From a virus, in the IMG/VR virus record IMGVR_UViG_3300034073_003124, positions 1 through 30,801 of that record: DNA of 30,801 nt, one strand, 5' to 3'. This document shows, piece by piece, positions 2,419-30,801 of this stretch. Position 1 is the first letter of the stretch. Every line of letters begins with the position of its first letter. The position numbers and the translations under genes are program-made. Under the pieces are notes generated by a model. The model was given only the letters and a program-made list of their open reading frames with translations. It was not told the origin of the DNA and searched no databases.

Positions 2419-2419
2419 T

Positions 2420-2980: not shown

Positions 2981-3004
2981 TAAGTTATTGATTTAGAAAG
3001 AATA

Positions 3005-4057: not shown

Positions 4058-4307
4058 TGTTCGAACTCTTTCTTTTGAATATCTGGTCTACAAAAATATT
4101 TTCAACAAAGCTATTTACTTTTATGAGGATTTACGATAAAATTAGACTGTCGGTCGTAAGGTACTTTATATAATAATATAGAGGAATTAGTGCTTCAAGA
4201 AACAAAAACCACTATATCTAGTACAGAATACTCCGAAGGAATTCCCGAAGGGAATCAAGTCTAAAATATCCATATAACTACTTATACCTGATAAAAGAGA
4301 GGTTGTC
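4058..4307. other. divergent intergenic region upstream of uvsY
   Basis: This 250-base gap separates two divergent genes and holds no credible ORF. On the plus strand TATAAT at 4169-4174 could be a -10, but no good -35 is seen. A small hairpin ATTCCC-GAA-GGGAAT lies at 4241-4255, preceded by a related CCGAAGGAAT direct repeat. On the minus strand GTAAATA at 4118-4112 may serve the 3005-4057 gene. Confidence 0.4.
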
Positions 4308-4772: not shown

Positions 4773-4775
4773 ATA
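4769..4775 (+). promoter_or_regulatory. candidate late promoter CTAAATA for the cassette locus
   Basis: CTAAATA overlaps the uvsY stop codon and is followed by further A/T-rich AAATAAATAATCC. It ends 29 bases before the first cassette start at 4805. The same heptamer precedes gp22, gp23 and the 14385 gene, which supports late expression of the cassettes together with the head genes. Confidence 0.6.
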
Positions 4776-4804
4776 AAAATAAATAATCCAGATAGGAGAC
4801 TATA

Positions 4805-5164
4805 ATGAGACACTTACTAGAAGAAGCTGCAGAAAGATTTGTTTTGAGTGAGTCAAATCCAAAAAGAAAATTGGAACACAAAAGAAGACAAAATGCTATA
4901 AAACACCATACTACTACAGCAGATATACACATAGAAGACAGAGAAGAAGCACCAGAACACGCAAAGGGAGAAAGAGAAGCAGCAACTCGCGCAGCTGATG
5001 CTAATCGCCAAGCTGTTTCTGACATAAAAAAACATGGTATAGATTCCCCACAAGCTAGGAAATCTAGGGTGAAGGCTAAAGATCTATCAGACGAACATAG
5101 AATCAAACAAGAAGATAGATGGGATCGAGAACAACAAGATGAATGGAATGAACATTATCATTAA
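4805..5164 (+). CDS. putative internal head protein, leader cassette 1
   Basis: A 119-residue protein whose first 11 residues, MRHLLEEAAER, are shared exactly with the next two genes; the rest is unrelated to them. The leader resembles T4 capsid-targeting sequences, where gp21 cleaves after (L/I)-x-E; LEE|A at residues 5-7 and LSE|S at 14-16 are possible sites. The body is very hydrophilic, rich in Lys, Arg, Glu and Ala, and probably helical (EHAKGEREAATRAADANRQ), like other small packaged proteins. The ribosome site is TAGGAGACTATA. An injected role (host takeover or anti-restriction, as T4 IPI) is inference from the leader and the late promoter. No payload family is recognised. Confidence 0.75.
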   Translation: MRHLLEEAAERFVLSESNPKRKLEHKRRQNAIKHHTTTADIHIEDREEAPEHAKGEREAATRAADANRQAVSDIKKHGIDSPQARKSRVKAKDLSDEHRIKQEDRWDREQQDEWNEHYH

Positions 5165-5170
5165 AATCCG

Positions 5171-5267
5171 TTAATCTTCTCTATCTTTCTCTACCAAGAA
5201 TTCAAAATAAACAACAGGAAAATAAATGAGACACTTACTAGAAGAAGCTGCAGAAAGGCTTTTTGAA
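5171..5267 (+). repeat. cassette border repeat, copy 1 (ruvC-tail relic plus leader)
   Basis: This unit begins TTAATCTTCTCTATCTTTCT, runs through the intergenic ribosome site, and ends after the leader-coding sequence of cassette 2. It is near-identical to 5546-5643. Its first 30 bases match the 3' end of the ruvC-like gene at 5994-6023. Confidence 0.85.
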
Positions 5268-5549
5268 ATGTTGGAAGAAGAAATTCTAACTGAACGAAAT
5301 CAAGAAAACAAAAAGAAAAAAGACTCTCTGAAACTCCAAAGAGTCGGGTTACCAGACCCATACGACGACAGTGTACATCACGATGGTGAAGAAATTAGAA
5401 CTATGAATGATCCTCTAGGAAAAAGAGCAAAAGACGCAAGAAGATCAGCAATTAAGAAATCGCTCAAAGATCCTAAAATGAATTCTAAAGATATAGATGA
5501 TGAAACTAGAAAGAATGTACAAAATGCTATAAAGAACAAAAAGCCTTAA
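5226..5549 (+). CDS. putative internal head protein, leader cassette 2
   Basis: A 107-residue protein with the shared leader MRHLLEEAAERLFE. LEE|A (5-7) or LFE|M (12-14) fits the gp21-type cleavage rule. The body is extremely charged (many Lys, Glu, Asp, Arg) with no hydrophobic core segment, so the mature product may be largely helical or unfolded, which fits a protein packed beside DNA and passed down the tail. The last residues KNKKP are shared with cassette 3, as is the DNA following them. The ribosome site is CAGGAAAATAA before ATG. Both flanks are repeated while the middle is unique, as expected if the body was swapped in. The function of the body is unknown. Confidence 0.75.
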   Translation: MRHLLEEAAERLFEMLEEEILTERNQENKKKKDSLKLQRVGLPDPYDDSVHHDGEEIRTMNDPLGKRAKDARRSAIKKSLKDPKMNSKDIDDETRKNVQNAIKNKKP

Positions 5550-5643
5550 TCTTCTCTAGCTTTCTCTACCAAGAATTCAACATAAACAAGAGGAAATATA
5601 AATGAGACATTTACTAGAAGAAGCAGCAGAAAGGCTTTTTGAA
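5546..5643 (+). repeat. cassette border repeat, copy 2 (ruvC-tail relic plus leader)
   Basis: This is the second copy of the 97-98 base unit at 5171-5267, covering the stop region of cassette 2, the spacer and the leader of cassette 3. By eye it differs at only a few positions. The matching 30-base segment at 5994-6023 is the authentic ruvC 3' end. Confidence 0.85.
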
Positions 5644-5997
5644 AAAGAAAGCCAACATCACATGATCCTTCTACCAAGTGGTACAATTTCTGTCAAAAAG
5701 GTTGGTTCTAAAACAGAACGAAATGAAGAGGGTAGCCCAAGTACGACTCACACCTATCATATCCACGATAGGAATGGGAATAAAATAGGCGAACTAACTG
5801 ATTCTATGGCGGTAGAAACTGGATTTCGTTCTGTTTCCGGTCACATACACGGAAAGCCTATTCCTGATCTAGATGGATATAAAGACGGTGGTGCAGGCGC
5901 TCCAGGAGCACTTCAACATTTTCTACAGAACACAAAAACTGGTAAGAAATTTCACGATAGAATCGAGGAACATCTAGCAAAGAACAAAAAGCCTTAA
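5602..5997 (+). CDS. putative internal head protein, leader cassette 3
   Basis: A 131-residue protein with leader MRHLLEEAAERLFE, the same possible gp21 sites as cassette 2, and the same KNKKP end. The body differs from the other two: it reads as beta-rich (MILLPSGTISVKKVGS, TYHIHDRNGNKIGEL), with several His residues (HTYHIHD, SGHIHGK) and a Gly-rich GGAGAPGALQ segment before a C-terminal helix. It could fold as a small enzyme or binding domain; I do not recognise it. The ribosome site is AGAGGAAATATAA. Its stop overlaps the stop of the convergent ruvC-like gene (TTAA at 5994-5997), and a terminator for this strand lies inside the ruvC coding sequence. Confidence 0.75.
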   Translation: MRHLLEEAAERLFEKESQHHMILLPSGTISVKKVGSKTERNEEGSPSTTHTYHIHDRNGNKIGELTDSMAVETGFRSVSGHIHGKPIPDLDGYKDGGAGAPGALQHFLQNTKTGKKFHDRIEEHLAKNKKP

Positions 5998-14384: not shown

Positions 14385-14918
14385 ATGAAAAGTTTTGTAG
14401 AAACATCTGACTCTCCATATCAGTTCAAGAAACTGATCGAGTCTACTTTGATGGAAAAGGCGCATAGGATTCTTTCCAACCAACAGTTCCAACAAGCCGC
14501 TGCGCTCGGGATGTTGGAGTATTGTGACGAACCAGACCAACAGAAACCGCAACTTGATTTCCACAAATTGATCAAGATGTTTTCTAACATTTCTGTTACT
14601 GATGATTTTGGAACCCATTCTTCTAAGGTCGTTGATAGACTTGATACCCATGCCGAAGAAGACGACGAGGAGTTCTTGAAAGCGTATAAAAAAGCTATTG
14701 GGCATGACCTACACAAAGACCCAGATTTTGCGCATTTCTTCGAGAGCGCCCAGCTAGACGAAGTCCACCCAGGATTCCAAGGGGAAAAAATTCCCCCAAA
14801 AAGAATACCAAGCGGAAAAGAAGTTGCTCCAAAAAGGGTCAACCCATTCCTTGGCAACAGAAAACAAATAACTCCTTCTGCTTCTTCGAAAACAAATTAT
14901 GGGATTGGGAGAAAATAA
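14385..14918 (+). CDS. prohead core protein candidate (gp68 position)
   Basis: A 177-residue, largely helical charged protein that sits where T4 has the core protein gp68, directly before gp21. The start MKSFVETSDSPYQF has AGGAACAT ahead. An LME|K at residues 22-24 fits the gp21 cleavage rule, as expected for a core component processed during maturation. The middle is acidic (HAEEDDEEFLKAYKKA) and the end is basic and Pro-rich (IPPKRIPSGKEVAPKRV), probably disordered. Its TAA overlaps the gp21 ATG (TAATG). The assignment is by position and composition, not by clear sequence similarity. Confidence 0.6.
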   Translation: MKSFVETSDSPYQFKKLIESTLMEKAHRILSNQQFQQAAALGMLEYCDEPDQQKPQLDFHKLIKMFSNISVTDDFGTHSSKVVDRLDTHAEEDDEEFLKAYKKAIGHDLHKDPDFAHFFESAQLDEVHPGFQGEKIPPKRIPSGKEVAPKRVNPFLGNRKQITPSASSKTNYGIGRK

Positions 14919-15562
14919 TGCTTCTAGTAGAATCTAACTACGACACTCAAGTCCTCACCGAAGGCGAAGGTTCTGGTAAAAACTGGAAGTTGAAAGGAAT
15001 TTTCATCCAAACAGAATGCGTCAACAGAAACCGCAGAATCTATCCAAACGCAGTTGTTGATCCACAAATTAACAGCTACATCAATGAGTATGTCAATTCA
15101 TCTCGTGCACTCGGCGAACTTGACCACCCAGAAACTCCGAGGATCGATTTGAACAGAGCTTCGCATCTAATCACTTCTATCTCTAGGGACGGAAATAATT
15201 ACATCGGCGAAGCCAGGATTCTAAACACTCCAACAGGTCAACTGGTTCGTGGTCTTCTAGAAGGTGGAGTCAAACTTGGTGTTTCTTCGAGAGGAATGGG
15301 TTCGGTGCAAGCCGATAGAAACGGTGTCAATGTAGTCCAAGGTGATTTCAAACTTGCTACCGTTGACATCGTATATCAACCTTCCGCTCCAGATGCTTTC
15401 GTTGAAGGATTGATGGAGAACGCTCAATTTGTGTGGGGTTCTGTTCACGAAGATGTTGAGTTTGTCCAATCACTCAAAGAGAAGATTCAAGAGACGAAGC
15501 TTGTTGACCTACAGGAAGCAAAGCTAGAGGCTTTCAGAGCGTTTGTTAAGAAATTTTCTTGA
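14918..15562 (+). CDS. 21: prohead core protease (gp21-like)
   Basis: A 214-residue serine protease; T4 gp21 has 212. It degrades the scaffold and trims capsid and internal proteins after (L/I)-x-E. Catalytic signatures are visible: GELDHPET with His70, and GVSSRGMGSV with the nucleophile Ser in SSR (residues 123-124). IYPNAVV and the YQPSAPDAFVEG segment near the end also match T4 gp21. Its ATG overlaps the upstream stop, so translation is coupled. This enzyme explains the short leaders ending in LxE or IxE seen on several other proteins in the window. Confidence 0.93.
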   Translation: MLLVESNYDTQVLTEGEGSGKNWKLKGIFIQTECVNRNRRIYPNAVVDPQINSYINEYVNSSRALGELDHPETPRIDLNRASHLITSISRDGNNYIGEARILNTPTGQLVRGLLEGGVKLGVSSRGMGSVQADRNGVNVVQGDFKLATVDIVYQPSAPDAFVEGLMENAQFVWGSVHEDVEFVQSLKEKIQETKLVDLQEAKLEAFRAFVKKFS

Positions 15563-15605: not shown

Positions 15606-17405
15606 ATGAACATTGAAGAAATGTACCGCAAGATGAAGCTGGACGAGGCTGCTGGTAGCCGTTCTGCGGATTCTGACGTTGGTGATGCAAAGTCACCAGG
15701 AAAACTAAAAGACCAATTCACTTCTCAGCCTGGTGCAGCTAAACTTGGTGCAAAAGTTGCTGGCGGCGAAACTTCCCCAGAGAAACTTTCTGCTGATGGC
15801 AAACAGGCTTCTGAGCCAGGTTCTGCTGACGCTGGTCGTGCTTCTGTCAAAGGCAGAACAATGCCTTCTCACGATGGCAATCAAATACACGAACCAAATG
15901 CAGAAAACGCTGGTGTTTCTGTTTCTGACGTCCATGGTGACCAAGGCGAATTTGACGGCAAGCCAAAGACTGTTGTTTCTGACATGACCAAGAAAGATCT
16001 TGGTGAAGCTAGTTTGAATGAGAAAGGTGTTACTGGTTCGAATGGTATGCACACTAGCGCAGCAGTAGGAACAGTTCATAAACCTACAACCCCTCCTGGG
16101 AAAAAGCCTGAAGTTGGTGTACCCCATAAAGATCATGGTGGTGGAACTGTTACTCATTACCCAAAACTACCACAAAAAGCAAAGAAAGATGTTCCGCAAT
16201 CACACAAGCCTTCTGGTATGTTGGGCAAGATTAAGAGTGGAATTAAGAGTGCTTTGAGAATTGACAAAGCTTCTGTAGAAGAATTCTACTCTAACTTCAT
16301 CGCTGAATACGAAGCAGTTCTTGAAGAGAACGGCATCAATGAATATGATGAAGAAGAAGCCATCAATTTCTTCGTAGAGCAGTTTGGAGATCTCTTTGTT
16401 GAAGCCAAAGATGAAGACAAAGATGAAGACGAAGAAGACGAAAAGGATGAGTCCGAAGAAAAAGATGAAGACGAAAAGGACGATTTGAAAGAAGCTAGAA
16501 AGGAGGACAAAGTAGGTCTCACTGCTGGCATGACGCCCGATGAGAAAAAATACCACCGAGCGCATCTTAATATAGATCCATTAAGAGCAGGAAGAAAAAT
16601 AACAGGAAGGGCTGGTAAGGTAGCAAAACCAAATCTTCCTAAGGACATTCTTCCTACAACAGAATCTTTCCAATTCCAACTCTCCGACCAACTTGGTGGT
16701 CTGCTTGAGTCCGAAGGTCTCACCGACGAGTTCAAGACTCAGGCAACCACAATCTTCGAAGCGGCTGTCAATGCTGCTGCAAAAGGTCACATTGAGTCGA
16801 TTCAAGAGCAACTCCAAGAGCAGTATGAAACCGAAGTTGCTTCTTATAAAGAGAAACTTGATGAGCAAGTCGAAAAATATCTTGACTATGTCGTCGAAGA
16901 GTGGGTCAAGCAGAACAAACTGGCTGTAGAATCTGCTGCTCGTAACAACGTTGCAGAATCTTTCATGGCTCGCCTGAAAGACCTACTAGAAGAACATTAC
17001 GTCCAGCTTCCCGAAGAAAAGGCTGATCTGTACGAAAGCGAAGTGCAGCGTGCGGAAAGTCTAGAAGCTGAATTGAACGAATCTATCGAGGCTCAGCGTC
17101 AACTTGCTGAACAAGTGAAGCAACTGAACAAAAAACTTCAAGTTGAATCGTTTGTTAGAGACCTGAGTGAAGTTGAAGCTGAGAAGATCCGTGAACTTTC
17201 CGAGGGTGTCGAGTTCCAACCAGAAGGTTTCGCGGCGAAATTGAAGACTCTGAAAGAGAACTTCTTCCCAACTCGCAAAGCAGCTAGTTCGATGATTGTA
17301 GAAGACACTCCAATCGTAGAATCTGCTCCAGTACAGAAAGTTGCTCCAGTGATGGACAAGTACCTGTCTGTACTCGGGAAAATGGAATCGTTCAGCAAGA
17401 AATAA
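15606..17405 (+). CDS. 22: prohead scaffold protein (gp22-like), extended
   Basis: A 599-residue scaffold protein, more than twice the 269 residues of T4 gp22. The C-terminal part, from about residue 353 (TTESFQFQLSDQLGGLLESEG), carries the conserved helical scaffold region with ATTIFEAAVNAAAKGHIESI, YLDYVVEEWVKQNKLAVESA and FVRDLSEVEAEKIRELSEG. The N-terminus MNIEEMYRKMKLDEAAGS has an LDE|A site at 12-14. Residues 20-220 are low-complexity Gly, Ser, Lys, Pro-rich sequence. Residues about 265-298 are a nearly pure Asp/Glu/Lys tract. The extra regions may be core peptides released by gp21. AGGAGACATTA precedes the ATG. Confidence 0.88.
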   Translation: MNIEEMYRKMKLDEAAGSRSADSDVGDAKSPGKLKDQFTSQPGAAKLGAKVAGGETSPEKLSADGKQASEPGSADAGRASVKGRTMPSHDGNQIHEPNAENAGVSVSDVHGDQGEFDGKPKTVVSDMTKKDLGEASLNEKGVTGSNGMHTSAAVGTVHKPTTPPGKKPEVGVPHKDHGGGTVTHYPKLPQKAKKDVPQSHKPSGMLGKIKSGIKSALRIDKASVEEFYSNFIAEYEAVLEENGINEYDEEEAINFFVEQFGDLFVEAKDEDKDEDEEDEKDESEEKDEDEKDDLKEARKEDKVGLTAGMTPDEKKYHRAHLNIDPLRAGRKITGRAGKVAKPNLPKDILPTTESFQFQLSDQLGGLLESEGLTDEFKTQATTIFEAAVNAAAKGHIESIQEQLQEQYETEVASYKEKLDEQVEKYLDYVVEEWVKQNKLAVESAARNNVAESFMARLKDLLEEHYVQLPEEKADLYESEVQRAESLEAELNESIEAQRQLAEQVKQLNKKLQVESFVRDLSEVEAEKIRELSEGVEFQPEGFAAKLKTLKENFFPTRKAASSMIVEDTPIVESAPVQKVAPVMDKYLSVLGKMESFSKK

Positions 17406-18896: not shown

Positions 18897-19841
18897 ATGT
18901 TATGTAATAGTGAATTCTCTTCTTGTGATGGAAGTAAAATAAGATACACGAAAGTAGGAATCAACAAAAAGGGTAAAATATTTTTTGTCGGAGGTCTTTT
19001 CTCGAACAGAATAATGTGGGTTCCATTCTCGATCCCATTTCTAATGAGCCACGAATGCGTTCTAGTTGATATAAGAGGTCACGGATTTTCTGAAGACAAC
19101 TCGAAAATAGAAGACGATATTCTAGATCTCCATGCAAAAGACCTAGCAGAATTATTTGAAAGAGAGTGCGATTCTAACAATAACATAGTTGTTTCTCTTT
19201 CTCTTGGAGCAACAAACTTATTGAAATCCTCAGAATACTTCAATTTTAGCAAGATAAACAAAGCTATTTTTATAGAGCCTCCAATAGTAACACAAAAAGA
19301 CAAAGATAATCACTTAAAAAATCTTGGGACGGTTTACAGCAAGATTATAGAATCGAACGTCGAAAAGATACAAAAACAAAATATGTTACAGATATTTCAA
19401 GAGGCTAATGCGTTCTCAGAACTTCCTCTTTCCTGTAAAGAAATATCCGAACAATCCCTAGAGTTGATCTTTATAGTTGGATCTAAAGGTCTCAGAACTA
19501 GATTCCCTTTACTTAACAAGATTCCAAGTAAAGCAAGAATATTGATTATGAAGACTGCCTCGTTTACAGAATATAAATTTAACACATACTTCAAATTGGC
19601 TTCTGCCTTCTTCTCTAAAGAAGAAGACTATTCAGAATACCTAAAGAACATGCAAAACACTGAGACCCATTTTTTCCTTGGAATGAATAACCATTTTTTC
19701 AACAACGAAAGGAACATAGAAAGAATTCTTTCTTCCAAGAGAGATTCTGTAATAGTGAAATTCAAAAAGTCTGGTCACGACCTACAGTTGAACGAACCAA
19801 TAAAATTCCTAAAAGAGTTTTGGAATTCAATAAACGATTAG
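18897..19841 (+). CDS. alpha/beta-hydrolase-fold protein 1, probably degenerate
   Basis: A 314-residue paralogue of the next gene. Shared anchors are DGSKIRY, WVPF, DIRGHGFSE and the ending KSGHDLQLNEPIKFLKEF. In the alpha/beta-hydrolase plan the nucleophile elbow is SLSLG (100-104, Ser102) and the last His is H294. Two features look impaired: the oxyanion HG pair is replaced by GG (residues 32-33), and no clear acid residue precedes the final His (GMNNHFF where the sister has VGKKNRVFD). It may therefore bind a ligand or partner without full catalysis. GGAAGG precedes the ATG. The DNA is much more A+T-rich than gp23, suggesting acquisition. Substrate unknown. Confidence 0.75.
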   Translation: MLCNSEFSSCDGSKIRYTKVGINKKGKIFFVGGLFSNRIMWVPFSIPFLMSHECVLVDIRGHGFSEDNSKIEDDILDLHAKDLAELFERECDSNNNIVVSLSLGATNLLKSSEYFNFSKINKAIFIEPPIVTQKDKDNHLKNLGTVYSKIIESNVEKIQKQNMLQIFQEANAFSELPLSCKEISEQSLELIFIVGSKGLRTRFPLLNKIPSKARILIMKTASFTEYKFNTYFKLASAFFSKEEDYSEYLKNMQNTETHFFLGMNNHFFNNERNIERILSSKRDSVIVKFKKSGHDLQLNEPIKFLKEFWNSIND

Positions 19842-19850
19842 GGGGGGTTT

Positions 19851-20792
19851 ATGATACGCAACAAAAGTTTCAATTCTTTCGACGGAAGCGAAATACATTA
19901 CTCTATAATAGGAAATGGGAAAAAGAAAGTTTTTCTCGTACACGGTCTTCTTACTGACAGATTAACTTGGGTTCCATTCGCACTACTTCTTAGAAACAAA
20001 TATACATTCATAACTCTTGAGGTAAGGGGGCACGGATTATCTGAAAACAATAACGTTACATCATATACTGGACACGAGGATTGTGCCAGAGATTTGAGCA
20101 TACTTGCTTCTAATATTCTTGATTGGAAAAATGGAGAGAAAGCTATAGTTGCTGCAATATCTATGGGAAACGCAATAGCTTGGACAATGAAGCAAAAATT
20201 TGGAGACGAATGGGTAGAAAAATACATTGTTGTTGACCATTCTATAAGAATACAAGTTCCAGGATTTCCTGAGTCAAATGTATTCACTTCAAACAGCGAA
20301 GAGTTTTGGGATTGTGCTAATTACATAGCTGAAGAAATAAGAAAAAACCCAGAATACTACAAAAGAAAGTCTCTCTCAGATACAAATAAAGAAATTATAA
20401 AGAGAGCGAAAAGAGCTCACCATCTTGTTGCAGTTGAATCTGTTGTTAAGGGTGGAAGGTTTGATTTGGTAACTAAGTTCCCTTCTTGGATAGTTGATAA
20501 TGCTTTTATGGTAGCAACTAGATTGTACTCTACTTGGAGAAGTCAGTTCATAATAGGTAGTTCATACAGGGTAAAATCTGACTTCCAAGATATAGTCTCT
20601 TCTATAACTAAGCCTATGATATTCTTTGTTGGAAAGAAGAACAGAGTTTTCGATTGTGACTGGCAATTAAAGTGTATAAACGAAATAAAGCCAGAATCCA
20701 AAGTTTATAAATTCGAACACTCTGGTCACGAACTGATGCAAGCAGAGCCAATCAAATTCTTAAAGTGTTTCAAGGAAGCGTTGGATTCATGA
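19851..20792 (+). CDS. alpha/beta-hydrolase-fold protein 2, active-site residues intact
   Basis: A 313-residue protein with the full alpha/beta-hydrolase set: VFLVHGLLTDRLTW with the oxyanion HG at 31-32, EVRGHGLSE, nucleophile elbow AISMG (Ser104), a probable acid in VGKKNRVFDCDW, and catalytic H293 in EHSGHELMQ. There is no signal peptide, so it acts in the cytoplasm or is packaged. Family members include esterases, lactonases and haloperoxidases, and the substrate cannot be read from sequence. It lies 9 bases after its paralogue, with a G7 run as part of the ribosome site. Its stop overlaps the convergent deaminase stop at the palindrome TCATGA. Confidence 0.82.
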   Translation: MIRNKSFNSFDGSEIHYSIIGNGKKKVFLVHGLLTDRLTWVPFALLLRNKYTFITLEVRGHGLSENNNVTSYTGHEDCARDLSILASNILDWKNGEKAIVAAISMGNAIAWTMKQKFGDEWVEKYIVVDHSIRIQVPGFPESNVFTSNSEEFWDCANYIAEEIRKNPEYYKRKSLSDTNKEIIKRAKRAHHLVAVESVVKGGRFDLVTKFPSWIVDNAFMVATRLYSTWRSQFIIGSSYRVKSDFQDIVSSITKPMIFFVGKKNRVFDCDWQLKCINEIKPESKVYKFEHSGHELMQAEPIKFLKCFKEALDS

Positions 20793-23758: not shown

Positions 23759-24955
23759 TCACCTGAAGTAGTCGCCGCCCTTCGCTGGGCGGATCCTTAC
23801 CACAGCGGCATCGGCTCGAGGCTTCCTTTTGAAGTAGGTCTGTCCCTTGATGCGGGTCGTCTCGTCCGAACTATCGGTTTTGTGGGAAACTTCTAGCCTA
23901 CAACCATCGTGTGGTGTCAGTTCTGAGTGGTGTCGTATTTTCGTGGGAGAAATCATTTTGTTGTTTGCATCAAATGTTGGAGTTTCCATCATAAAGTTTG
24001 CTGTGCTGACAGATTTTTCTCCGAATTTTCCTCTGCCAGTCACGCTCTCCATTATCACATGATTCTTTAGTTTAGGATGCGCATCATGGATTGAGCTAAA
24101 GATTTCCGCTATTTTGTTCCGTTTCTCCTCGAACTTTGCATTAACTGCATCGATGGTTTTCTTCCGAGCAGGTGTTGTTGTTTCTTTGCTGTCTTTCTCT
24201 AGGTAGTCCATCTGGCTCAGTTCTTTAGAGTGCTTTTTGGCTTCCTCTAGTTTTGCCAGAAGGTCTTGTCTATGAGCTTCTTTTTTCTTTTCTGAAAGCC
24301 CTGCATATTCTGGCTCTGTTTCTAACATCTTGTTGAGCGCATGCTCATGTATTGCGCTCACTTCATTGATAGAAGATGCACCAAGTTGAGCGCCCTCTCC
24401 TTTTTTCAGAGACACGTTTATACCAGCACCCTCTGCTTTTGGGCTTAGATTTCCCTTTTCATCGACGTGTTTCTTGTCGACCAAAGCTATGTCTGCCTTT
24501 GATGTGCTATCTTTTGCTCCGTGTTTCTTCCAGATGTCAGATAGCTTCCCTTTGGCTTTTCCTAGAGAGGCTAATATGTGACCGTTGTTGACAGCGTCAT
24601 GAAGATGAGTAGACTGAGAGACCATTCCGTGGATAGAATCGACTGCTCTATGCATTTCAGCATAATAATCGTCCGTGTCTGCTTTTGTCTTTCCTTTTGA
24701 TCCTTTTCCAAACATATCTGGGTGTGCGTTGTTGAAATGCAATGGATGGTTCTTGTCTTTCTTTGCCTTTTCTATCTCGTTGTGCATGTTTGTTCGGACG
24801 ATTTCAGAGCCCTTTTCGTTCCCGTAGTGTTGCATGACATTCCTAAGATGCCCTGTTTCCGTGAAGTGATTCCAAGCAGACTTGATCCCGACTTCGTATC
24901 CTGTCTGGGTGTTCATAGCCTCGCAAAGATAAAAGAATTCTCTGAATGTCAACAT
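23759..24955 (-). CDS. large putative internal head protein with possible nuclease-like core
   Basis: A 398-residue protein. The start at 24955 is supported by GATAAATA 38 bases upstream and by the leader MLTFREFFYLCEAMN, which resembles T4 capsid-targeting sequences (MKTYQEFIAEA) and holds an LCE|A gp21-type site at 10-12. Readings from 25075 would overlap the previous gene. The body is very hydrophilic and Lys/Glu/His-rich. Residues 150-200 contain SKADIALVD, then GINVSLKKGEGAQL; this D...SLKKG...QL layout resembles PD-(D/E)xK-type nuclease cores seen in other phage proteins (inference). A coiled-coil-like stretch follows (EKKKEAHRQDLLAKLEEAKKH). The best guess is a packaged, injected protein. 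Confidence 0.75.
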   Translation of the reverse strand: MLTFREFFYLCEAMNTQTGYEVGIKSAWNHFTETGHLRNVMQHYGNEKGSEIVRTNMHNEIEKAKKDKNHPLHFNNAHPDMFGKGSKGKTKADTDDYYAEMHRAVDSIHGMVSQSTHLHDAVNNGHILASLGKAKGKLSDIWKKHGAKDSTSKADIALVDKKHVDEKGNLSPKAEGAGINVSLKKGEGAQLGASSINEVSAIHEHALNKMLETEPEYAGLSEKKKEAHRQDLLAKLEEAKKHSKELSQMDYLEKDSKETTTPARKKTIDAVNAKFEEKRNKIAEIFSSIHDAHPKLKNHVIMESVTGRGKFGEKSVSTANFMMETPTFDANNKMISPTKIRHHSELTPHDGCRLEVSHKTDSSDETTRIKGQTYFKRKPRADAAVVRIRPAKGGDYFR

Positions 24956-24992
24956 GCAATTAGTTCTCTCGTATTGAAGAAATTGTTTCAAA

Positions 24993-25000
24993 TATTTATC
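24993..25000 (-). promoter_or_regulatory. late promoter GATAAATA for the 23759-24955 gene
   Basis: The GATAAATATTTG element lies 38 bases before the ATG at 24955, between that start and the stop of the cysteine-rich gene. It marks a late gene embedded in the early region. Confidence 0.6.
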
Positions 25001-25016
25001 AACACAAAATTCTTCG

Positions 25017-25295
25017 CTAAGAGCAGTATGTTTCCTTGCATTCCTCGCAGGACATATCCAGCAATTTGGTATCAAATACGTCCATAGCCAGATAATTACA
25101 GCATTTATCCTTGCAGTTCATGCAGTCGATATTTCCGTTTGCGTCAAATACACATTTCTTATCGCTACAGAACATTCCTTCGTTTTTGTTTGGAAAATTC
25201 CTACAGCAACTAAATCTGGTTTCGTATACAGTGCAAAGACCTTCTTCGCTTAGCAACGGACACTTAATCACGTTGGTGACTTTTATTTTTGTCAT
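25017..25295 (-). CDS. cysteine-rich protein, YkgJ-like metal-binding pattern
   Basis: A 92-residue protein with 13 cysteines (12, 21, 30, 31, 43, 48, 58, 61, 65, 66, 83, 86, 91). The N-terminal CPLLSEEGLCTVYETRFSCCRNFP matches the plan of the YkgJ family of zinc or iron-sulfur binding proteins (CPxL, CxVYExRPxxCRxFP). YkgJ proteins are of unknown precise role. It has no signal peptide, so a cytoplasmic metal-bound protein is expected. Its ATG overlaps the upstream stop (ATGA), with GGTGGGGCGATAA as ribosome site. It is the last gene of the early operon before the late gene at 24955. Confidence 0.72.
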   Translation of the reverse strand: MTKIKVTNVIKCPLLSEEGLCTVYETRFSCCRNFPNKNEGMFCSDKKCVFDANGNIDCMNCKDKCCNYLAMDVFDTKLLDMSCEECKETYCS

Positions 25296-25576
25296 TTATC
25301 GCCCCACCATACTTTCAGCCTACACATATCACCTTCTTTCTCTGGGTAGACTGCCTTCACATCAAACCCACGCCGTTTCAACTCTTTCTCTGCCATCGTC
25401 AAGAACTGACCTCTGAACGGAAGCGTTTCGCAGTAGAAGTATCCTCTAGATGCAGTGTCGGCAACCTCTTGTAGGATGCAATGAACAAGCCCATTAGCTT
25501 CTTTTTCTAGTGCTTTCTTTGTGATTGTTTTTGCAGATTCCACATCAAAAGAATCTGTGACTACGATTACTGCCAT
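25292..25576 (-). CDS. hypothetical protein
   Basis: A 94-residue protein. It opens with a strand (MAVIVVTDSF), then a helix (ESAKTITKKALEKEANGLVHCILQEVADTA), then GYFYCETLPFRGQFLTMAEKELKRRGFDVKAVYP, giving an alternating alpha/beta layout. TTGGAGTAATTTAAT precedes the ATG. Its stop overlaps the next start. No family is recognised. Confidence 0.72.
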   Translation of the reverse strand: MAVIVVTDSFDVESAKTITKKALEKEANGLVHCILQEVADTASRGYFYCETLPFRGQFLTMAEKELKRRGFDVKAVYPEKEGDMCRLKVWWGDK

Positions 25577-25582
25577 ATTAAA

Positions 25583-25798
25583 TTACTCCAAAATTCTTCT
25601 TGGTGCCAACACATTAGCTTCAAGATTCGACCAGCGATTATTGCAACCGCATTTGAACGGCGCACGAAAAGGGACTGCTATGTATTTCCCGTTCTTCGTC
25701 TTGCGTCTATATCCACTATTATATGTGAATGCGTTTGGTGTATAATGTGGAAGTTTCCACATCACGTTCTTGATGAAATTAAATTTTCTGTTAATCAT
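25583..25798 (-). CDS. small basic hypothetical protein
   Basis: A 71-residue basic protein starting MINRKFNFIKNVMWKLPHYTPNAF. The ATG at 25798 has GAGGGGAGAAG directly before it and overlaps the upstream gene by 8 bases. A CGCNNRWSN segment near residue 50 shows a lone Cys pair that is not enough for a zinc site. Arg/Lys content suggests nucleic-acid contact, but this is unproven. It lies in the mid early operon. Confidence 0.65.
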   Translation of the reverse strand: MINRKFNFIKNVMWKLPHYTPNAFTYNSGYRRKTKNGKYIAVPFRAPFKCGCNNRWSNLEANVLAPRRILE

Positions 25799-26054
25799 CT
25801 TCTCCCCTCTCAAATAATTGCTTGCGACATTTGAAGCATTTACCAGACCAGTCTGTCTCTGGAATCACGCAACAAGGAACAGGCTTTCCCTCCATCCGAT
25901 GGATCTCTTTGATAACATTTTCGCAAGCCTCACGCTCTTTGGCTCGTATAAGCCTTGCAAATCCTACAAGAGCCTCGACTTGCCCGTCTGGCGCTGGCAA
26001 AACAGTTCCAATTCCTGCCTTCTCTGCCAGGACGAGGATTTCCCAAGTTTTCAT
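25791..26054 (-). CDS. hypothetical protein of a proteobacterial-phage type
   Basis: An 87-residue protein. The central ALVGFARLIRAKEREACENVI helix is the hallmark of a very common family of small phage proteins (FAxLIRAxEREAC), usually of unknown role and seen beside THTPGPW proteins. A C-terminal CCVIPETDWSGKCFKCRKQLF segment holds a possible two-CxxC-like zinc knuckle. GGAAGTAGTC precedes the ATG. The base composition is more G+C-rich than its neighbours, hinting at exchange with other phages. Confidence 0.72.
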   Translation of the reverse strand: MKTWEILVLAEKAGIGTVLPAPDGQVEALVGFARLIRAKEREACENVIKEIHRMEGKPVPCCVIPETDWSGKCFKCRKQLFERGEDD

Positions 26055-26056
26055 GA

Positions 26057-26356
26057 CTACTTCCTTGCCTTGGCGATTGCGGCGCGTGATATATCCATTG
26101 CGTAAGCCTTTCCAAACCCATTCATTTCTACCATTTCAACCATGCTTTCCAACGCCTCCAGCAACTCAGGTGCGGCTGCAATTAACAAAGCGTTAGCCTC
26201 CCATTCATCTTTTTTGTTGCGTAACCCCTTCCCCATAATCGCAACTGTAATATGGTCTGGCGTCGTGCATGAGACTGTAAAATCGGACGCCTCAACATCA
26301 CCTTCGTTAAGGGCTGAAAAATCTTGCGCAAACCACGGACCAGGTGTGTGAGTCAT
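26057..26356 (-). CDS. MTHTPGPW-type phage hypothetical protein
   Basis: A 99-residue protein. It begins MTHTPGPWFAQDF and contains EANALLIAAAPELLEALESMVEM, the two marks of a small protein widespread in phages and prophages of proteobacteria. Its role is unknown despite its abundance. The ATG overlaps the previous stop (ATGA), so it is translationally coupled to the 26353 gene. The G+C-rich composition stands out. Confidence 0.78.
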   Translation of the reverse strand: MTHTPGPWFAQDFSALNEGDVEASDFTVSCTTPDHITVAIMGKGLRNKKDEWEANALLIAAAPELLEALESMVEMVEMNGFGKAYAMDISRAAIAKARK

Positions 26357-26580
26357 TCTTGCCCCCTTGCGCGGATTGCGGCTGATGCAGCTACATTGCT
26401 AATCCATGTATGCTGTTGCTCCATTAGTTCTGCACACACCTCCCGCTCATGCGCTGCGACAAGGGCGGCAAAACGATAAAGAATATTCTCAAGTTCACCT
26501 GCTGGATAAGTCGTACCTATGTGTTTGGAAAACCCAAACCCAACTTTTTCTAGCAAGTATTTTATTTCATCACGTGTCAT
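26353..26580 (-). CDS. hypothetical protein, RFAALVAAHEREVC type
   Basis: A 75-residue protein. Its ILYRFAALVAAHEREVCAELMEQQHT helix is the same family mark as in the 25791 gene, so these two may be distant relatives flanking the THTPGPW gene. GAGGGATAATTAAGA precedes the ATG. The three genes read as a coupled block. Function unknown. Confidence 0.72.
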   Translation of the reverse strand: MTRDEIKYLLEKVGFGFSKHIGTTYPAGELENILYRFAALVAAHEREVCAELMEQQHTWISNVAASAAIRARGQE

Positions 26581-26586
26581 TCTTAA

Positions 26587-26898
26587 TTATCCCTCAATCA
26601 ATTGTTGTGAGAACAAAAAGTCTAGCAGTCTATCTGCGTTATCGAATGTATACTCTTTGCCACCAATCTTAAGAGCTAGAGAATGGTTATTTCCCCAATC
26701 ATACAAGAACCAGTATGCCCATTCTTGTTCTTGATCTTGAAAGATGTGATTTACACATAGATCGACCATTTTTTGATGAGATTCAGTGTAAGGATTATCG
26801 AAGAACACAGAATTGATTTGCGGTGGGACTGTGTCGATCCATTTGTCTGCTTTCTGGTTCTCAATAAAGATCCGCTTGAGTAGAGTTTTCTTGCTCAT
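26587..26898 (-). CDS. hypothetical protein
   Basis: A 103-residue protein with many aromatic residues (QEWAYWFLYDWGNNHSLALKIGGKEYTFDNADRLLDFL). There is no membrane span or cysteine pair. AAAGGTTGAGCTAAT, which includes the upstream stop, precedes the ATG. The N-terminal MSKKTLLKRIFIENQKADKWID is basic and helical. No family is recognised. Confidence 0.72.
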   Translation of the reverse strand: MSKKTLLKRIFIENQKADKWIDTVPPQINSVFFDNPYTESHQKMVDLCVNHIFQDQEQEWAYWFLYDWGNNHSLALKIGGKEYTFDNADRLLDFLFSQQLIEG

Positions 26899-26899
26899 A

Positions 26900-27106
26900 T
26901 TAGCTCAACCTTTCCATTGCGATGTAGATAGCCTCGACGGTACAAATTTCCCCTCTGACGTATTCCAGAATCAAATCTCTGTATTGATCTGGATATTCTT
27001 CAACATCAAAGTTATCTCCGTCCAAAGCATACGTCAAATGTGCGTCGTACAAAAGATTGGAAATATCCTTTCCCACCTTCACCTGTCGTTCTGTTGGTCG
27101 GTTCAT
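26900..27106 (-). CDS. small acidic hypothetical protein
   Basis: A 68-residue acidic, helical protein (MNRPTERQVKVGKDISNLLYDAHLTYALDGD...). The ATG overlaps the upstream stop (ATGA). The acidic surface could mimic nucleic acid or bind a host enzyme, but no evidence decides this. Confidence 0.68.
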   Translation of the reverse strand: MNRPTERQVKVGKDISNLLYDAHLTYALDGDNFDVEEYPDQYRDLILEYVRGEICTVEAIYIAMERLS

Positions 27107-27441
27107 TCGTATTTCAACTCCATAAAATTTGTATCTTCGGGAACAACTTCGATCGTCGACTGTGCGTCTGCCGCAGTTTCAAAAATTCTCCGAAGAATTC
27201 CCTGACCGTATGCGGAAGTCCCATAAGAGTTCTTGGAACAAAAATAACTGGATCCTGACTCGTTTTTGAATTCGTATCCAGTTTCGTGGTCGATGACTTC
27301 TTTGATCCCGGAACTCATCCTCCAGCTATCGCCTTGGGCGTACCCACCAACCCACACAGCAAATACCTTGTAAAACGTCTTGTCGTATATTTCGCTGTTT
27401 ATTTTGACAATAAACCATCTGTCTGGATAATAGTCTTTCAT
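27103..27441 (-). CDS. conserved-type phage hypothetical protein
   Basis: A 112-residue beta-rich protein. YYPDRWFIVKIN, FYKVFAVWVGGYAQGDSWRMSSGI and the SYGTSAYGQGIL segment resemble a small protein that I recall in several myoviruses (a PDxWVVVKI start and a GDSWRLNSGI core), with no known function. TTTGGAGTGTATAAAGA precedes the ATG, and the start overlaps the stop of the small membrane gene upstream (ATGA). Confidence 0.75.
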   Translation of the reverse strand: MKDYYPDRWFIVKINSEIYDKTFYKVFAVWVGGYAQGDSWRMSSGIKEVIDHETGYEFKNESGSSYFCSKNSYGTSAYGQGILRRIFETAADAQSTIEVVPEDTNFMELKYE

Positions 27442-27611
27442 TCTTTATACACTCCAAATCTATACATCATTGCAGTGAATACTCCAACAAGAGACATCAA
27501 CAAGCAAAGACCAGAAATCTCATAGTTTCCTTGTATAGCATACTTGATATGGTACACATACAAGCAACCAGAAAGGATAGAACTAATCAGTATGATTGTT
27601 AGCTGCTTCAA
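27438..27611 (-). CDS. 57-residue two-span membrane protein, TTG start
   Basis: The TTG at 27611 has GGAGG six bases upstream. The protein has two hydrophobic stretches, residues 5-20 (TIILISSILSGCLYVY) and 33-49 (SGLCLLMSLVGVFTAMM), with a short polar loop between, so a hairpin inner-membrane protein is likely. The stop overlaps the next ATG (ATGA), and the 5' end overlaps the 27583 gene. Without it there would be an unusual 140-base gap in an otherwise gapless operon. Function unknown; small membrane proteins of this type can be lysis regulators or superinfection-exclusion factors. Confidence 0.65.
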   Translation of the reverse strand: MKQLTIILISSILSGCLYVYHIKYAIQGNYEISGLCLLMSLVGVFTAMMYRFGVYKE

Positions 27612-27780
27612 GAAACGCCTCCTCCAATATCTCGTTTGGGTCTTTTAATAGATGTTTCGTGAGAATTCTCTCAAACTCGCTCAGAAACAAAGACAGCTTC
27701 GGTCTGTAGTATGGAACTCTTAATATGTCAAGACCGAATTCTTCTATCATCCGATCGACTTCTTCGTGATTGATTATCAT
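27583..27780 (-). CDS. small hypothetical protein
   Basis: A 65-residue helical protein (MIINHEEVDRMIEEFGLDILRV..., then LSLFLSEFERILTKHLLKDPNEILEEAFLEAANNH). The ATG overlaps the upstream stop (ATGA). It overlaps the small membrane gene by 29 bases in a different frame. No family is recognised. Confidence 0.65.
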   Translation of the reverse strand: MIINHEEVDRMIEEFGLDILRVPYYRPKLSLFLSEFERILTKHLLKDPNEILEEAFLEAANNHTD

Positions 27781-28190
27781 CGCTCAAGCTTCTTCTGGTG
27801 ATTACATTGGTTTATCAGTGTCTCGTTGCCAGAGTATTCCTGTTCGCAGGTAGGATTTACAGGGGAACTCTTTGCATATTCTCGTACATACGCTTGTTGT
27901 TTTCTAGCAACAACTTGGTTCTGATGCTTGATGCTTTGTTCTGCTCTGATAGAACCAATTGATACAGTTTTATGCTCCTCTATCCATTCTCTACCCCAAC
28001 CAAGTATCAACAAGATGATAATGATTTTACGCAGAGCATATATTATACCCAGAACTGCCATCAAACAGGTGAGTACGATCTTTGACAAAAATGATACAAG
28101 TTTCCTGAATTTAGGAGAAGCGCAGACCAAGTATACAAACGCAACGACAACAAGTGCCATCTGTATATTGTCAAGCGTCAGATATTTCAC
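27777..28190 (-). CDS. membrane protein, first gene below early promoter copy 3
   Basis: A 137-residue protein with hydrophobic stretches at about 10-24, 32-52 and 55-65, then a soluble C-terminal tail of 70 residues with two Cys (TCEQEY, NQCNHQ) that may form a disulfide. The tail would face the periplasm if it crosses the membrane an odd number of times. It uses a GTG start at 28190 with GGGTGATTT before it; the next Met, at residue 11, has no ribosome site. The -10 lies about 30 bases upstream. Expected early expression and membrane location fit exclusion or membrane-remodelling roles, which are not proven. Confidence 0.7.
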   Translation of the reverse strand: MKYLTLDNIQMALVVVAFVYLVCASPKFRKLVSFLSKIVLTCLMAVLGIIYALRKIIIILLILGWGREWIEEHKTVSIGSIRAEQSIKHQNQVVARKQQAYVREYAKSSPVNPTCEQEYSGNETLINQCNHQKKLER

Positions 28191-28221
28191 AAATCACCCA
28201 ATGGGAAGTTTCTATACCACA

Positions 28222-28249
28222 AGTATAACCTATACGGCACCAAAGTAAA
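28222..28249 (-). promoter_or_regulatory. early promoter, copy 3 (TTTACT-N16-TATACT)
   Basis: On the minus strand -35 TTTACT (28249-28244), 16 bases, -10 TATACT (28227-28222). The spacer differs from copies 1 and 2 (TTGGTGCC...), which shows that the hexamers and their spacing are kept while the spacer drifts. Confidence 0.8.
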
Positions 28250-28257
28250 GACCTTTT

Positions 28258-28278
28258 TTATACCGTTTTGGAATAAGC
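28258..28278 (-). promoter_or_regulatory. conserved 21-bp box, copy 3 (diverged)
   Basis: The same position relative to the -35 (8 bases) as the other copies, with about five substitutions; GGTATAA and TATTC are kept. Confidence 0.5.
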
Positions 28279-28315
28279 TCTGGCTTGATATAACCAAATC
28301 GTATAAGAAGCTAAG

Positions 28316-28624
28316 TTATTGATTACATTGACCTTTTAGCCTATACCCAATGTACTTCTCTTCCCAAGCCTTTCGGCGTTCCTCGGTTCTGAATTGTTTG
28401 CGATCGATCTGATGCTTTTCAAACACTTCTTGCATTTTCTCAATTCTTGAAGTCTGAGTGTGTTTATTCCATAAAAACAAAAGAGTCCACGCGATCATCA
28501 ATGCAAACAAAACTTGCAGAAGTTCTTGTGTCAGAGGGTGGACTCGCTTTCCTTCGTACCAACCTACAGCACGTTGAAAAGAGCGTTCGCGAATTTCTTC
28601 TGAAGTTAGTCTTTCATATGACAT
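28316..28624 (-). CDS. single-span membrane protein
   Basis: A 102-residue protein starting MSYERLTSEEIRERSF. One membrane helix at about residues 35-52 (ELLQVLFALMIAWTLLFLW) separates a charged N-terminal domain from a long basic C-terminal helix (KMQEVFEKHQIDRKQFRTEERRKAWEEKY). The ATG at 28624 has AAAGGGTGAATAAC and follows the upstream stop directly. It pairs with the 28626 gene, also single-span, so the two may form a complex. Role unknown. Confidence 0.72.
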   Translation of the reverse strand: MSYERLTSEEIRERSFQRAVGWYEGKRVHPLTQELLQVLFALMIAWTLLFLWNKHTQTSRIEKMQEVFEKHQIDRKQFRTEERRKAWEEKYIGYRLKGQCNQ

Positions 28625-28625
28625 G

Positions 28626-28832
28626 TTATTCACCCTTTAGTTCAGCTGGGATCTTCTCGTAACCACAATCTTTGTTTTCGATTAGTTGGTTATATGTGTA
28701 GATTTCTTCTGGGGTTGGTTCATTATCCCAGAGACGAACTTGTTGGATGACATTGATCACTAGCCAGAAAGCCAGAACCAGCCACATGAAGATGTAGGTG
28801 AGTTTGAAGAAAAATATGCGTGCAGCGTTCAC
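28626..28832 (-). CDS. small single-span membrane protein
   Basis: A 68-residue protein with a hydrophobic helix at residues 6-29 (FFFKLTYIFMWLVLAFWLVINVI) and a polar acidic C-terminus. It uses a GTG start with GAGGTACAATAA upstream. It is the first gene below the early promoter at 28874-28902 and couples to the 28316 membrane gene. A holin-like function cannot be excluded, but early promoter control argues for host-membrane modification or exclusion. Confidence 0.7.
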   Translation of the reverse strand: MNAARIFFFKLTYIFMWLVLAFWLVINVIQQVRLWDNEPTPEEIYTYNQLIENKDCGYEKIPAELKGE

Positions 28833-28873
28833 TTATTGTACCTCGGTTTACAGATTAGAGTATTTGTAAACTT

Positions 28874-28902
28874 ATAGTACAATAAGCAGCCACAAAAGTA
28901 AA
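28874..28902 (-). promoter_or_regulatory. early promoter, variant copy (TTTACT-N17-TACTAT)
   Basis: On the minus strand TTTACT (28902-28897), a 17-base spacer and TACTAT (28879-28874). The 21-bp box and distal block are absent here, so this is a simple promoter of the same class. Confidence 0.6.
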
Positions 28903-28906
28903 CTAA

Positions 28907-29251
28907 TTACGTTAGGTGCACATTCTGTGAAGCAAGGGAGGGAGCCATCCTTGCAATCTTTTTGTCTGCCAAAAGACAAATTTTATCAGCTTCGTTTCTT
29001 AGATCAATGGCTTCTTTTTGCGCAGCAGCATCCCCTGGAAACGCTTTCGCTTGAATGGCGAATTCGTTGGCGTCGTCGATGTGGTGTGCGGCAAGAACAC
29101 AAAGATCGTTCAGGCGTTGAATTTCTCTGGAAGTTCTGGAGTCGAACTTCTTGTTTAGAATAGCTTTGTCTAGAATCTTTGCAATCTTCTGGTATCTTTG
29201 TTTTCTTGCTTGATTCTCTGCTTCCATCAAGAATTCGTTCAAGTGTTTCAT
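28907..29251 (-). CDS. putative internal head protein with capsid-targeting leader
   Basis: A 114-residue protein whose N-terminus MKHLNEFLMEAENQ closely resembles T4 capsid-targeting sequences (MKTYQEFIAEA), with LME|A at residues 8-10 as the probable gp21 cut. The mature part is a charged, Ala-rich helical protein (LAAHHIDDANEFAIQAKAFPGDAAAQKEAIDLRNEADK). Its ATG overlaps the stop of the 29251 gene (TAATG). It is the last gene of the late operon that begins at 30659. Injection with the DNA is inferred from the leader. Confidence 0.75.
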   Translation of the reverse strand: MKHLNEFLMEAENQARKQRYQKIAKILDKAILNKKFDSRTSREIQRLNDLCVLAAHHIDDANEFAIQAKAFPGDAAAQKEAIDLRNEADKICLLADKKIARMAPSLASQNVHLT

Positions 29252-29664
29252 TAGGTGGTCTCGTGTGCTATTTGTGTTGCTCTTTTTGCTTCTTCTGTTG
29301 CTCTTTTTGCATCTCTTCTCCGCTGACCTGAACCAGCCATTCCTCCGTTTTCATATTCGCTGTGGGCGGTTTCTGCGGCGCGATGAGCAGATTCTGCCTC
29401 TCTGTGCGCCTGAGCTATTCTGGTGAACATCTCATGTTGTTCAAACGAAGGAGTGTGTTTAGCTGCATGTTCCAATCCTGCTGCTGTTTGACCATGGTCT
29501 TTTGCTCTCATCCCGTGGTCGTTGGCAGCTGCACCACCAACTTTGGGATCCTTTGGTTTGAATTTGTCTTCTGCGCTTTTTCTTGCCGCCTCTAGAATTA
29601 TGTCTTCTAGGTCGTGTGGACCATATGACTTGAATTCTCTAAAACTGATTCCTGGTTTGCTCAT
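29251..29664 (-). CDS. putative internal head protein, Ala/His-rich
   Basis: A 137-residue protein. The ATG at 29664 overlaps the phospholipase stop (ATGA), with GTGGATTAAA ahead; a start four codons earlier is possible but lies inside the previous gene. The leader MSKPGISFREFKSYGPHDLEDIILEAARKS holds a FREF motif and ILE|A at 23-25, matching the gp21 rule. The mature part is Ala/His/Glu-rich with repeated helices (AHREAESAHRAAETAHSEY, RDAKRATEEAKRATQIAHE), similar in composition to leader cassette 1. Function unknown. Confidence 0.72.
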   Translation of the reverse strand: MSKPGISFREFKSYGPHDLEDIILEAARKSAEDKFKPKDPKVGGAAANDHGMRAKDHGQTAAGLEHAAKHTPSFEQHEMFTRIAQAHREAESAHRAAETAHSEYENGGMAGSGQRRRDAKRATEEAKRATQIAHETT

Positions 29665-30659
29665 TTTAATCCACATTCGTTGTTAAGGCAGTTTACTGAT
29701 TTAGTTAGGATGGCGATAGTTACAGCCATCGCTTCTGGGATGAGTTCCTTTGCAACACGATTACGAGTTTCGAAATCGGTCGAGTAAAGAGGCTCTGGTC
29801 TTGCATATGCTTGATTGGCAACAGTATGGATCAGATTTGGAATTGTATCCCTAGGATTGTACTTTGATAGAGCCATCTGAACTTTATTGTAATCGGCAAA
29901 CTTCTGTGTATAGTAATTGTCCTCGACCCATCCTTCCCATCCTGCGTGATGGTTTGCAGAAGTTGAGTTCGTGTGGTGTGGCTGGGCGGCATCTGTTGCG
30001 AAGTGTAGCGAGTATCCAACTGTCTGAAATGTTGGTTGTTTAAGAAATTGTCCGAACCAATGTTTTCCTGCGTTAGAAGATGGCTGCCAAGGAATGGTCT
30101 GGAAATCTTTGTATTGATCGTATGTAGAATAAGAACCTTGGCGATAGTTGGCTTCTGTTGTATCGAAGTCAGACTTCTTTAGTTCCTGGTTCCAGAGATA
30201 AACTGCAGCGAGTTTGTCGATGTCAAAAAACTCTCCCTTGCCGAGCGACCCATTAGGAGTGCGATGCTGATAATTGTATCCACCATGAGGGTTTCCGTGG
30301 GCGTCAGTTCCACGAGACATAGTCACAAAGTGGTGATATGCGTTGTATCCGACAATGTCATAAGCGAGACCAAAGACTGGCGCTTCCCAGTATCCAGTCC
30401 ACCAAAAGCCTAGATGTACGTCTTTGAACCGATCCACATCGAAACATGCCTGACCTAGTGCGTCCCCAGCCTTCGCTGCATCACCAGCAGCAGCTTTCTT
30501 GAAGTATTCGTATGCTCTCTTTTGTTCTGCTGTTGCGTAAGGAGAACCCATATACGCAAACGCATCCTGCACGATTTGCTTGTGGGTTGGCATCGACCAA
30601 CCAAATGCGTTAGAAGAAACTGCTAGAGAAACTGCTAGAGCGAGGCTCTTTACTTTCAT
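29661..30659 (-). CDS. secreted zinc-dependent phospholipase C-like enzyme
   Basis: A 332-residue protein with a clear Sec signal peptide (MKVKSLALAVSLAVSSNAFG, cleaved before W21). The predicted mature N-terminal Trp, followed by H26, is the zinc-binding start of the phospholipase C / P1 nuclease superfamily. Further ligand motifs: DVDRFKDVHLGFW (74-85), YNAYHHF (H109, H110), and SLHFATDAAQPHHTNS with H219, D223 and H228, then NHHAGWEGWVED with H237/H238 and E242. The pattern LHxxTDxxQPxH...H...WE fits the zinc phospholipase C family better than P1 nuclease, but the substrate is not certain. It would act in the periplasm or outside the cell. A late promoter lies 59 bases upstream, and two capsid-targeted proteins follow. 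Confidence 0.85.
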   Translation of the reverse strand: MKVKSLALAVSLAVSSNAFGWSMPTHKQIVQDAFAYMGSPYATAEQKRAYEYFKKAAAGDAAKAGDALGQACFDVDRFKDVHLGFWWTGYWEAPVFGLAYDIVGYNAYHHFVTMSRGTDAHGNPHGGYNYQHRTPNGSLGKGEFFDIDKLAAVYLWNQELKKSDFDTTEANYRQGSYSTYDQYKDFQTIPWQPSSNAGKHWFGQFLKQPTFQTVGYSLHFATDAAQPHHTNSTSANHHAGWEGWVEDNYYTQKFADYNKVQMALSKYNPRDTIPNLIHTVANQAYARPEPLYSTDFETRNRVAKELIPEAMAVTIAILTKSVNCLNNECGLK

Positions 30660-30801
30660 ACATTATTTCCTCTGGTTCTGATATTGTTTGCGTACAGGAA
30701 GGCTAGATCTACATTTTTATTTATATTGGACACGTCGGTCATAGGATTTGCAAGGATCGCAAGAAGGATCTTTTCGAACAGATCTTGATTTGTTTCTTGC
30801 T
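30656..30801 (-). CDS. C-terminal end of an unknown protein (partial)
   Basis: An open frame of 47 codons runs from the window edge to a TGA that overlaps the phospholipase ATG (ATGA). The visible end, DLFEKILLAILANPMTDVSN...AFLYANNIRTRGNN, looks like normal protein with a helix, and the stop coupling matches the style of neighbouring genes. The product cannot be named from this fragment. Confidence 0.6.
   Translation of the reverse strand, partial: QETNQDLFEKILLAILANPMTDVSNINKNVDLAFLYANNIRTRGNNV
30718..30725 (-). promoter_or_regulatory. late promoter TATAAATA for the phospholipase operon
   Basis: An exact TATAAATA on the minus strand lies 59 bases before the phospholipase ATG, inside the 3' end of the upstream gene. 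Confidence 0.75.

Follow-up and report, generated by a model that had tools for sequence, protein, structure and literature searches.

Do the leader-like N-termini scattered over the minus strand of a T4-like phage contig mark proteins that are packed into the head and carried into the host? The question is raised by the viral contig IMGVR_UViG_3300034073_003124 (positions 1 to 30,801; hereafter the window, that is, the whole 30.8-kb stretch of DNA analysed), whose phage is known here from sequence alone. The internal proteins of T4 are injected, inhibit type IV restriction enzymes and have only their leader in common (PMC3012670, PMC12373910). In the leader of T4 internal protein III (IPIII), mutations have defined residues 4 and 7 as directing packaging and residues 8 and 10 as directing processing by the prohead protease gp21, and with an Asp placed at position 10 targeting persists although processing is blocked (PMC9026906). 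Three minus-strand genes of the window, named here cargo 1, cargo 2 and cargo 3, start with leaders of this kind, and it is likely that they encode internal-head cargo of a T4-like phage, targeted by a residue pair of the leader, cleaved by gp21 and probably injected. Under this best reading, they add new members from beyond the T-even group to the T4 internal-protein kind.

Three leaders and their rarity

The initial annotation described three minus-strand leaders, each ending at a gp21-type site followed by Ala, and all of them are found, at 24955, 29664 and 29251 (the starts of cargo 1, cargo 2 and cargo 3, respectively; a slash marks the presumed cut in what follows). They share a hydrophobic or aromatic pair three residues apart, formed by F4 and F7 in cargo 1, F8 and F11 in cargo 2 and L4 and F7 in cargo 3, with the leader Glu at residues 12, 25 and 10. 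A single ATG start in the window, that of cargo 3, fits the T4 IPIII spacing of residues 4, 7, 8 and 10. The leader of T4 IPI (MKTFKEFTSTTTPVSTITE/A) has its FKEF core set apart from the ITE/A cut site, and the same long, two-part arrangement is observed in cargo 1 and in cargo 2, the leader of the latter exceeding the T4 range of 10-19 residues. The start of cargo 1 was assigned to the ATG at 24955, the TTG at 25075 that opens the longest open reading frame (ORF) being judged less likely. Pfam and PHROG searches revealed neither a family common to the mature parts of the three proteins nor a recognised enzymatic domain in any of them.

These leaders are captured by a two-part rule (rule B), which asks for [FYL]xEF close to the N-terminus together with (L/I/V)xE/A by residue 28. 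The rule was composed after the candidates were known, and T4 provides its fair, independent calibration: out of 1326 ATG starts it returned IPI, IPII and IPIII alone. Applied to the window, it returned cargo 1-3 alone out of 276 ATG starts, with 0.016 matches expected from shuffled N-termini, which bears out the resemblance to T4 leaders initially proposed. The cut site is enriched as well, LxE/A with its Glu at residue 28 or earlier being present in 7 of the 54 called genes against 1.1 expected from shuffling, a number attained in 4 of 5000 shuffles; three of these seven genes carry one repeated leader, MRHLLEE/A, which leaves five independent cases. This repeated leader and the start of the window gp22 (MNIEEMYRKMKLDE/A) have the cut site, lack the F..F core and match neither rule. 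T4 gp22 likewise has no targeting core and, together with gp67 and gp68, fails the two-part rule. The MRHLLEE cassettes and gp22 may be gp21 substrates, and grouping them with cargo 1-3 on targeting, as had been done at first, is not upheld. Two ATAAATA sites in all occur on the minus strand of the window, each just upstream of a cargo unit (NATAAATA); ATAAATA also occurs ahead of the first cassette, of gp18 and of gp20, and at 21169, where no late gene follows.

The leader in virion proteins of cyanophages

The leader was tested against the published virion proteome of cyanophage S-CREM2, in which purified virions yielded 52 of the 219 annotated proteins (PMC10665884, Table 3). Every annotated gene was translated and the pattern [FYLM]..F[LIVMF].E was sought in the first 30 residues, which gave seven virion proteins and one non-virion protein (p = 0.0002); when the pattern was anchored to the T4 IPIII spacing, five of the six matches were virion proteins (p = 0.003). 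Those tagged comprise a SAM hydrolase (MKDFDSFLEE), an APH-like kinase (MKRFDAFLTE), a Cas9-like nuclease (...LRFASFMAE/A), a cytidylyltransferase (MKNFSSFLTE/A), ORF13 (MKDLHSFLTE) and ORF136 (MQTFSMFFSE), the seventh match, at residues 16-22 of a baseplate wedge protein, being probably due to chance. All four 'regulatory' and nuclease virion proteins named in PMC10665884 bear the tag, and the terms 'leader', 'targeting' and 'N-terminal' are absent from its text. In several of the virion-detected leaders, F, Q, E or D takes the place of Ala after the Glu. What identifies cargo is a hydrophobic or aromatic pair three residues apart near the start, usually followed by hydrophobic-x-E. As a predictive rule, LxE/A alone was tried and rejected, since it picked eight S-CREM2 proteins of which one is in the virion; the common rule (L/I)xE/A for prohead-core cargo advanced in the initial annotation does not hold.

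The cytidylyltransferase/NMNAT (T4-GC190) has been reported in virions of S-SM1 (PMC3037559), S-SCSM1 (PMC9602691), S-SZBM1 and S-CREM2, and its leader is present in P-SSM2, S-SM2, Syn19, S-SZBM1, S-SCSM1, P-RSM6 and S-CREM2; the P-HM2 protein, as annotated, has none. A scan of IMG/VR with the S-CREM2 enzyme gave one relative, which bears the leader, and a NadR-like protein of S-CREM1 is tagged too. Homologues of the S-CREM2 kinase in S-N03, MA01 and S-B68 have degenerate forms of the leader only. These virion enzymes of S-CREM2, S-SCSM1 and S-SM1 resemble cargo 1-3 in the type of leader and were found in purified virions; they differ in belonging to known families.

The leader across T4-like phages and IMG/VR

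A DNA pattern encoding MK.[FY].EF(hydrophobic).EA was searched in 2.9 million viral contigs of IMG/VR and gave at least 120 matches, against one for a control in which codons 4 and 6 were exchanged. Among the 131 matches listed, nearly all are located at ORF starts, and the 105 complete ORFs among them sort into 43 groups whose mature parts are unrelated. The gp21 protease is encoded in 13 of the 17 leader-bearing records tested, and the other four may be fragments. The mature parts among the matches listed include a SAM lyase (L065, E = 1.3e-11), a 2H phosphoesterase (L090) whose Acb1 match is sub-threshold, an RlpA-like domain (L093), a GNAT acetyltransferase (L115), an exonuclease-X-like C-terminus (L039), DUF6267 and DUF192 and, by PHROGs, known internal head proteins and cytidylyltransferases. 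The SAM lyase (L065:11561-12109) and the 2H phosphoesterase with its weak Acb1 match (L090:9512-10045) are possible pre-packaged counter-defence proteins.

A looser pattern gave 23 matches in ten T4-like genomes against one for the reversed control. The strict pattern had zero matches in the T4-like Sinorhizobium phage phiN3, so that in its strict form the tag is not universal. In T4 itself, the 54-residue gp61.1 (NC_000866 18966-19130, minus strand) starts with MKTFKEFIKE/D, like the leaders of IPII and IPIII, and may possibly be an overlooked T4 internal protein.

Relatives of cargo 1

Cargo 1 has relatives on several IMG/VR contigs and in cyanophage P-RSM6 (CPXG_00038). When four members of the family are aligned, M1, F4, F7 and the E/A site do not vary, and two more distant relatives still have LxE/G or LxE/A at residues 12-16. 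The relative on contig L113 has the leader MKRFKSFANLAE/A, with the shape and length of that of cargo 1; there, three genes in a row start with F..F leaders (MKRFKSFANLAE/A, MKSFKEFNE/G and MKRFNEFLTE/A; 1664-5204, minus strand) and form a leader-tagged cargo cluster. AlphaFold2 models of cargo 1, made with four and later six sequences, had a mean predicted local distance difference test score (pLDDT) of 52, and comparison of its profile with solved structures returned only a designed protein and calmodulin (E >= 0.03). A nuclease-like D...SxK pattern, with D155, S182 and K184 invariant in the six-sequence alignment, is a lead only.

A cargo 1-type gene follows uvsY in contigs L124, L126 and L094, with head genes just upstream in L124 and L094. 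In the window, the slot after the uvsY-like gene is taken by the three MRHLLEE cassettes instead of by cargo 1 relatives, as though head cargo were exchanged at this place.

Proposed route and competing explanations

In the route proposed, the leader pair (F4 and F7, F8 and F11 or L4 and F7) would bind the gp22-based prohead core during head assembly, the window gp22 being the likely docking partner. The gp21 of the window, the enzyme expected to cut the cargo leaders, would then cleave after the Glu of (L/I)xE/A, so that the mature protein stays behind with the packaged DNA, from where it would probably be ejected into the host with the DNA and act before any phage gene expression. Binding, cleavage, packaging, injection and any host target in the phage of the window are what we infer by analogy. 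The initial suggestion that one phage may inject six or more proteins keeps its realistic part, several cargoes per phage (six in S-CREM2 by published mass spectrometry), injection in the window phage resting on the same analogy. Taken singly, cargo 3 is very likely capsid cargo, cargo 1 only a little less so, and cargo 2 probably.

Likeness to T4 IPI, IPII and IPIII extends to the short N-terminal leader, the [FYL]xEF core, the (L/I)xE/A site, a gp21 protease encoded nearby and unrelated mature parts. Unlike T4, the phage of the window is not T-even, two of the leaders have 12 and 25 residues, late-promoter-like sites lie upstream, and the mature parts are unrelated to any T4 internal protein. 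In giant phages such as SPN3US, head proteins are also cut after Glu by a gp21-type protease and some are ejected (PMC9026906), in a diverged system that is likened here by description only.

Several observations weigh against the cargo reading. The phage of the window was read from its sequence, the virion test being done on S-CREM2 instead; searches of phages and IMG/VR gave zero homologues of cargo 2 and cargo 3, so that their leaders are not checkable by conservation; and once six cargo 1 sequences are aligned, M1 and F4 are the only leader residues that do not vary. S-SCSM1 ORF30 is tagged, yet it is not annotated as a virion protein. The minus-strand ATAAATA count equals chance (2 found against 2.2 expected), position alone being telling (Table 1); the two sites are candidate late promoters, which would provide expression in time for head assembly. 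Moreover, the exact T4 IPIII spacing is present in cargo 3 only, not in cargo 1 or 2.

This last point, with a two-part rule written post hoc, would speak for one or two of the three leaders being accidental, the N-terminus of cargo 2 or cargo 1 being an ordinary one that combines FREF and LxEA by chance. Such an accident is unlikely, as T4 IPI itself combines an FKEF core with a distant ITE/A, the leader of the L113 relative agrees with that of cargo 1 in shape and length, shuffled N-termini give almost no matches, and cargo 2 stands in an operon with cargo 3. Slightly less likely still is that the leaders mark core or scaffold parts, proteins that help to build the head and stay or are degraded there, with no injection and no action on the host. 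T4 gp22, gp67 and gp68 are indeed core proteins and loss of IPIII causes head-assembly defects (PMC9026906), and the lack of a recognised enzymatic domain in cargo 1-3 would fit. However, those T4 core proteins miss the two-part rule that the injected IPI-IPIII obey, in the S-CREM2 virion the leader is borne by enzymes, and the tagged mature parts are diverse and unrelated, unlike conserved core proteins. Far more remote is the view that (L/I)xE/A alone is the address sending all such proteins, gp22 and the MRHLLEE cassettes included, to the prohead core: the motif is the T4 gp21 cut site and is enriched early in window genes, but its poor yield among S-CREM2 virion proteins, the virion leaders without Ala after Glu and, in T4, the mapping of targeting away from the cut site, onto residues 4 and 7 (PMC9026906), all speak against it.

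Genomic context

The window has a T4-like late block with gp18, gp19, gp20, gp21, gp22 and gp23. Its gp23 has at most 59% identity to any named phage, the nearest relatives being from Pseudoalteromonas, Stenotrophomonas, Methylophilales and Synechococcus T4-like phages. The window gp22 has 599 amino acids, with the T4_CASP domain spanning residues 360-587 only, which leaves a long extra N-terminal part. Directly 3' of gp23 (18897-20792, plus strand) are two tandem ORFs, alpha/beta-hydrolase-like as judged by eye from the translation.

Cargo 2 and cargo 3 belong to an operon of overlapping genes, in the order gene from 30659, cargo 2 and cargo 3, the start of cargo 2 overlapping the preceding gene by ATGA and that of cargo 3 overlapping cargo 2 by TAATG. 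The 332-residue protein at the head of the operon has no relative in Pfam, PHROG, PDB sequences, phages or IMG/VR; by eye, it shows W..H and H...D...QPHH...H...WE motifs, as in zinc phospholipase C or S1/P1 nucleases.

Table 1. Coordinates of the cargo genes and associated features in the window
Feature	Position	Strand	Remarks
Cargo 1, 398 amino acids, leader MLTFREFFYLCE/A	23759-24955	-	Leader codons 24920-24955; fits two-part rule
Cargo 2, 137 amino acids, leader MSKPGISFREFKSYGPHDLEDIILE/A (MSKPGISFREF...DIILE/A)	29251-29664	-	Leader codons 29590-29664; fits two-part rule
Cargo 3, 114 amino acids, leader MKHLNEFLME/A	28907-29251	-	Leader codons 29222-29251
332-amino-acid protein, signal-peptide-like start, no capsid leader; first gene of cargo 2/3 operon	29661-30659	-	
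GATAAATA, late-promoter-like	24993-25000	-	45 bp before cargo 1 ATG
TATAAATA, late-promoter-like	30718-30725	-	66 bp before 30659-29664-29251 operon
Three tandem cassettes, common start MRHLLEE/A	4805-5997	+	Possible gp21 substrates; no targeting core
gp21 prohead protease (Peptidase_S77)	14918-15562	+	PF03420 E = 2.3e-38; PHROG 207 E = 1.7e-67
gp22 scaffold/core protein	15606-17405	+	PF25623 E = 2.9e-55

Significance

In the T-even phages, the leader and its use for finding internal proteins are already established (PMC12373910, after earlier work). To judge from the open literature, the presence of this tag on virion enzymes, in cyanophages as in other T4-like phages, seems not to have been described; in open-access papers, 'capsid targeting' and 'cyanophage' co-occur only in a T4 review (subscription papers being outside this scope). 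We are inclined to regard the T4 capsid targeting leader as an interchangeable delivery tag in general use among T4-like phages, cyanophages included, which would explain why virions contain SAM hydrolase, protein kinase, Cas9-like nuclease, NMNAT and similar enzymes, and would pre-load counter-defence or host-takeover proteins such as SAM lyase, the anti-CBASS Acb1-related 2H phosphoesterase and acetyltransferase, cargo 1-3 being examples. Each virion-associated enzyme from T4-like phages of marine or fresh waters has been described on its own, unconnected to a reason for its packaging. Since the leader can be recognised in the sequence, proteins that are likely to be injected can be listed for any T4-like genome or contig and, because the T4 internal proteins are anti-restriction factors, such a list points to untested counter-defence genes, cargo 1-3 among them.

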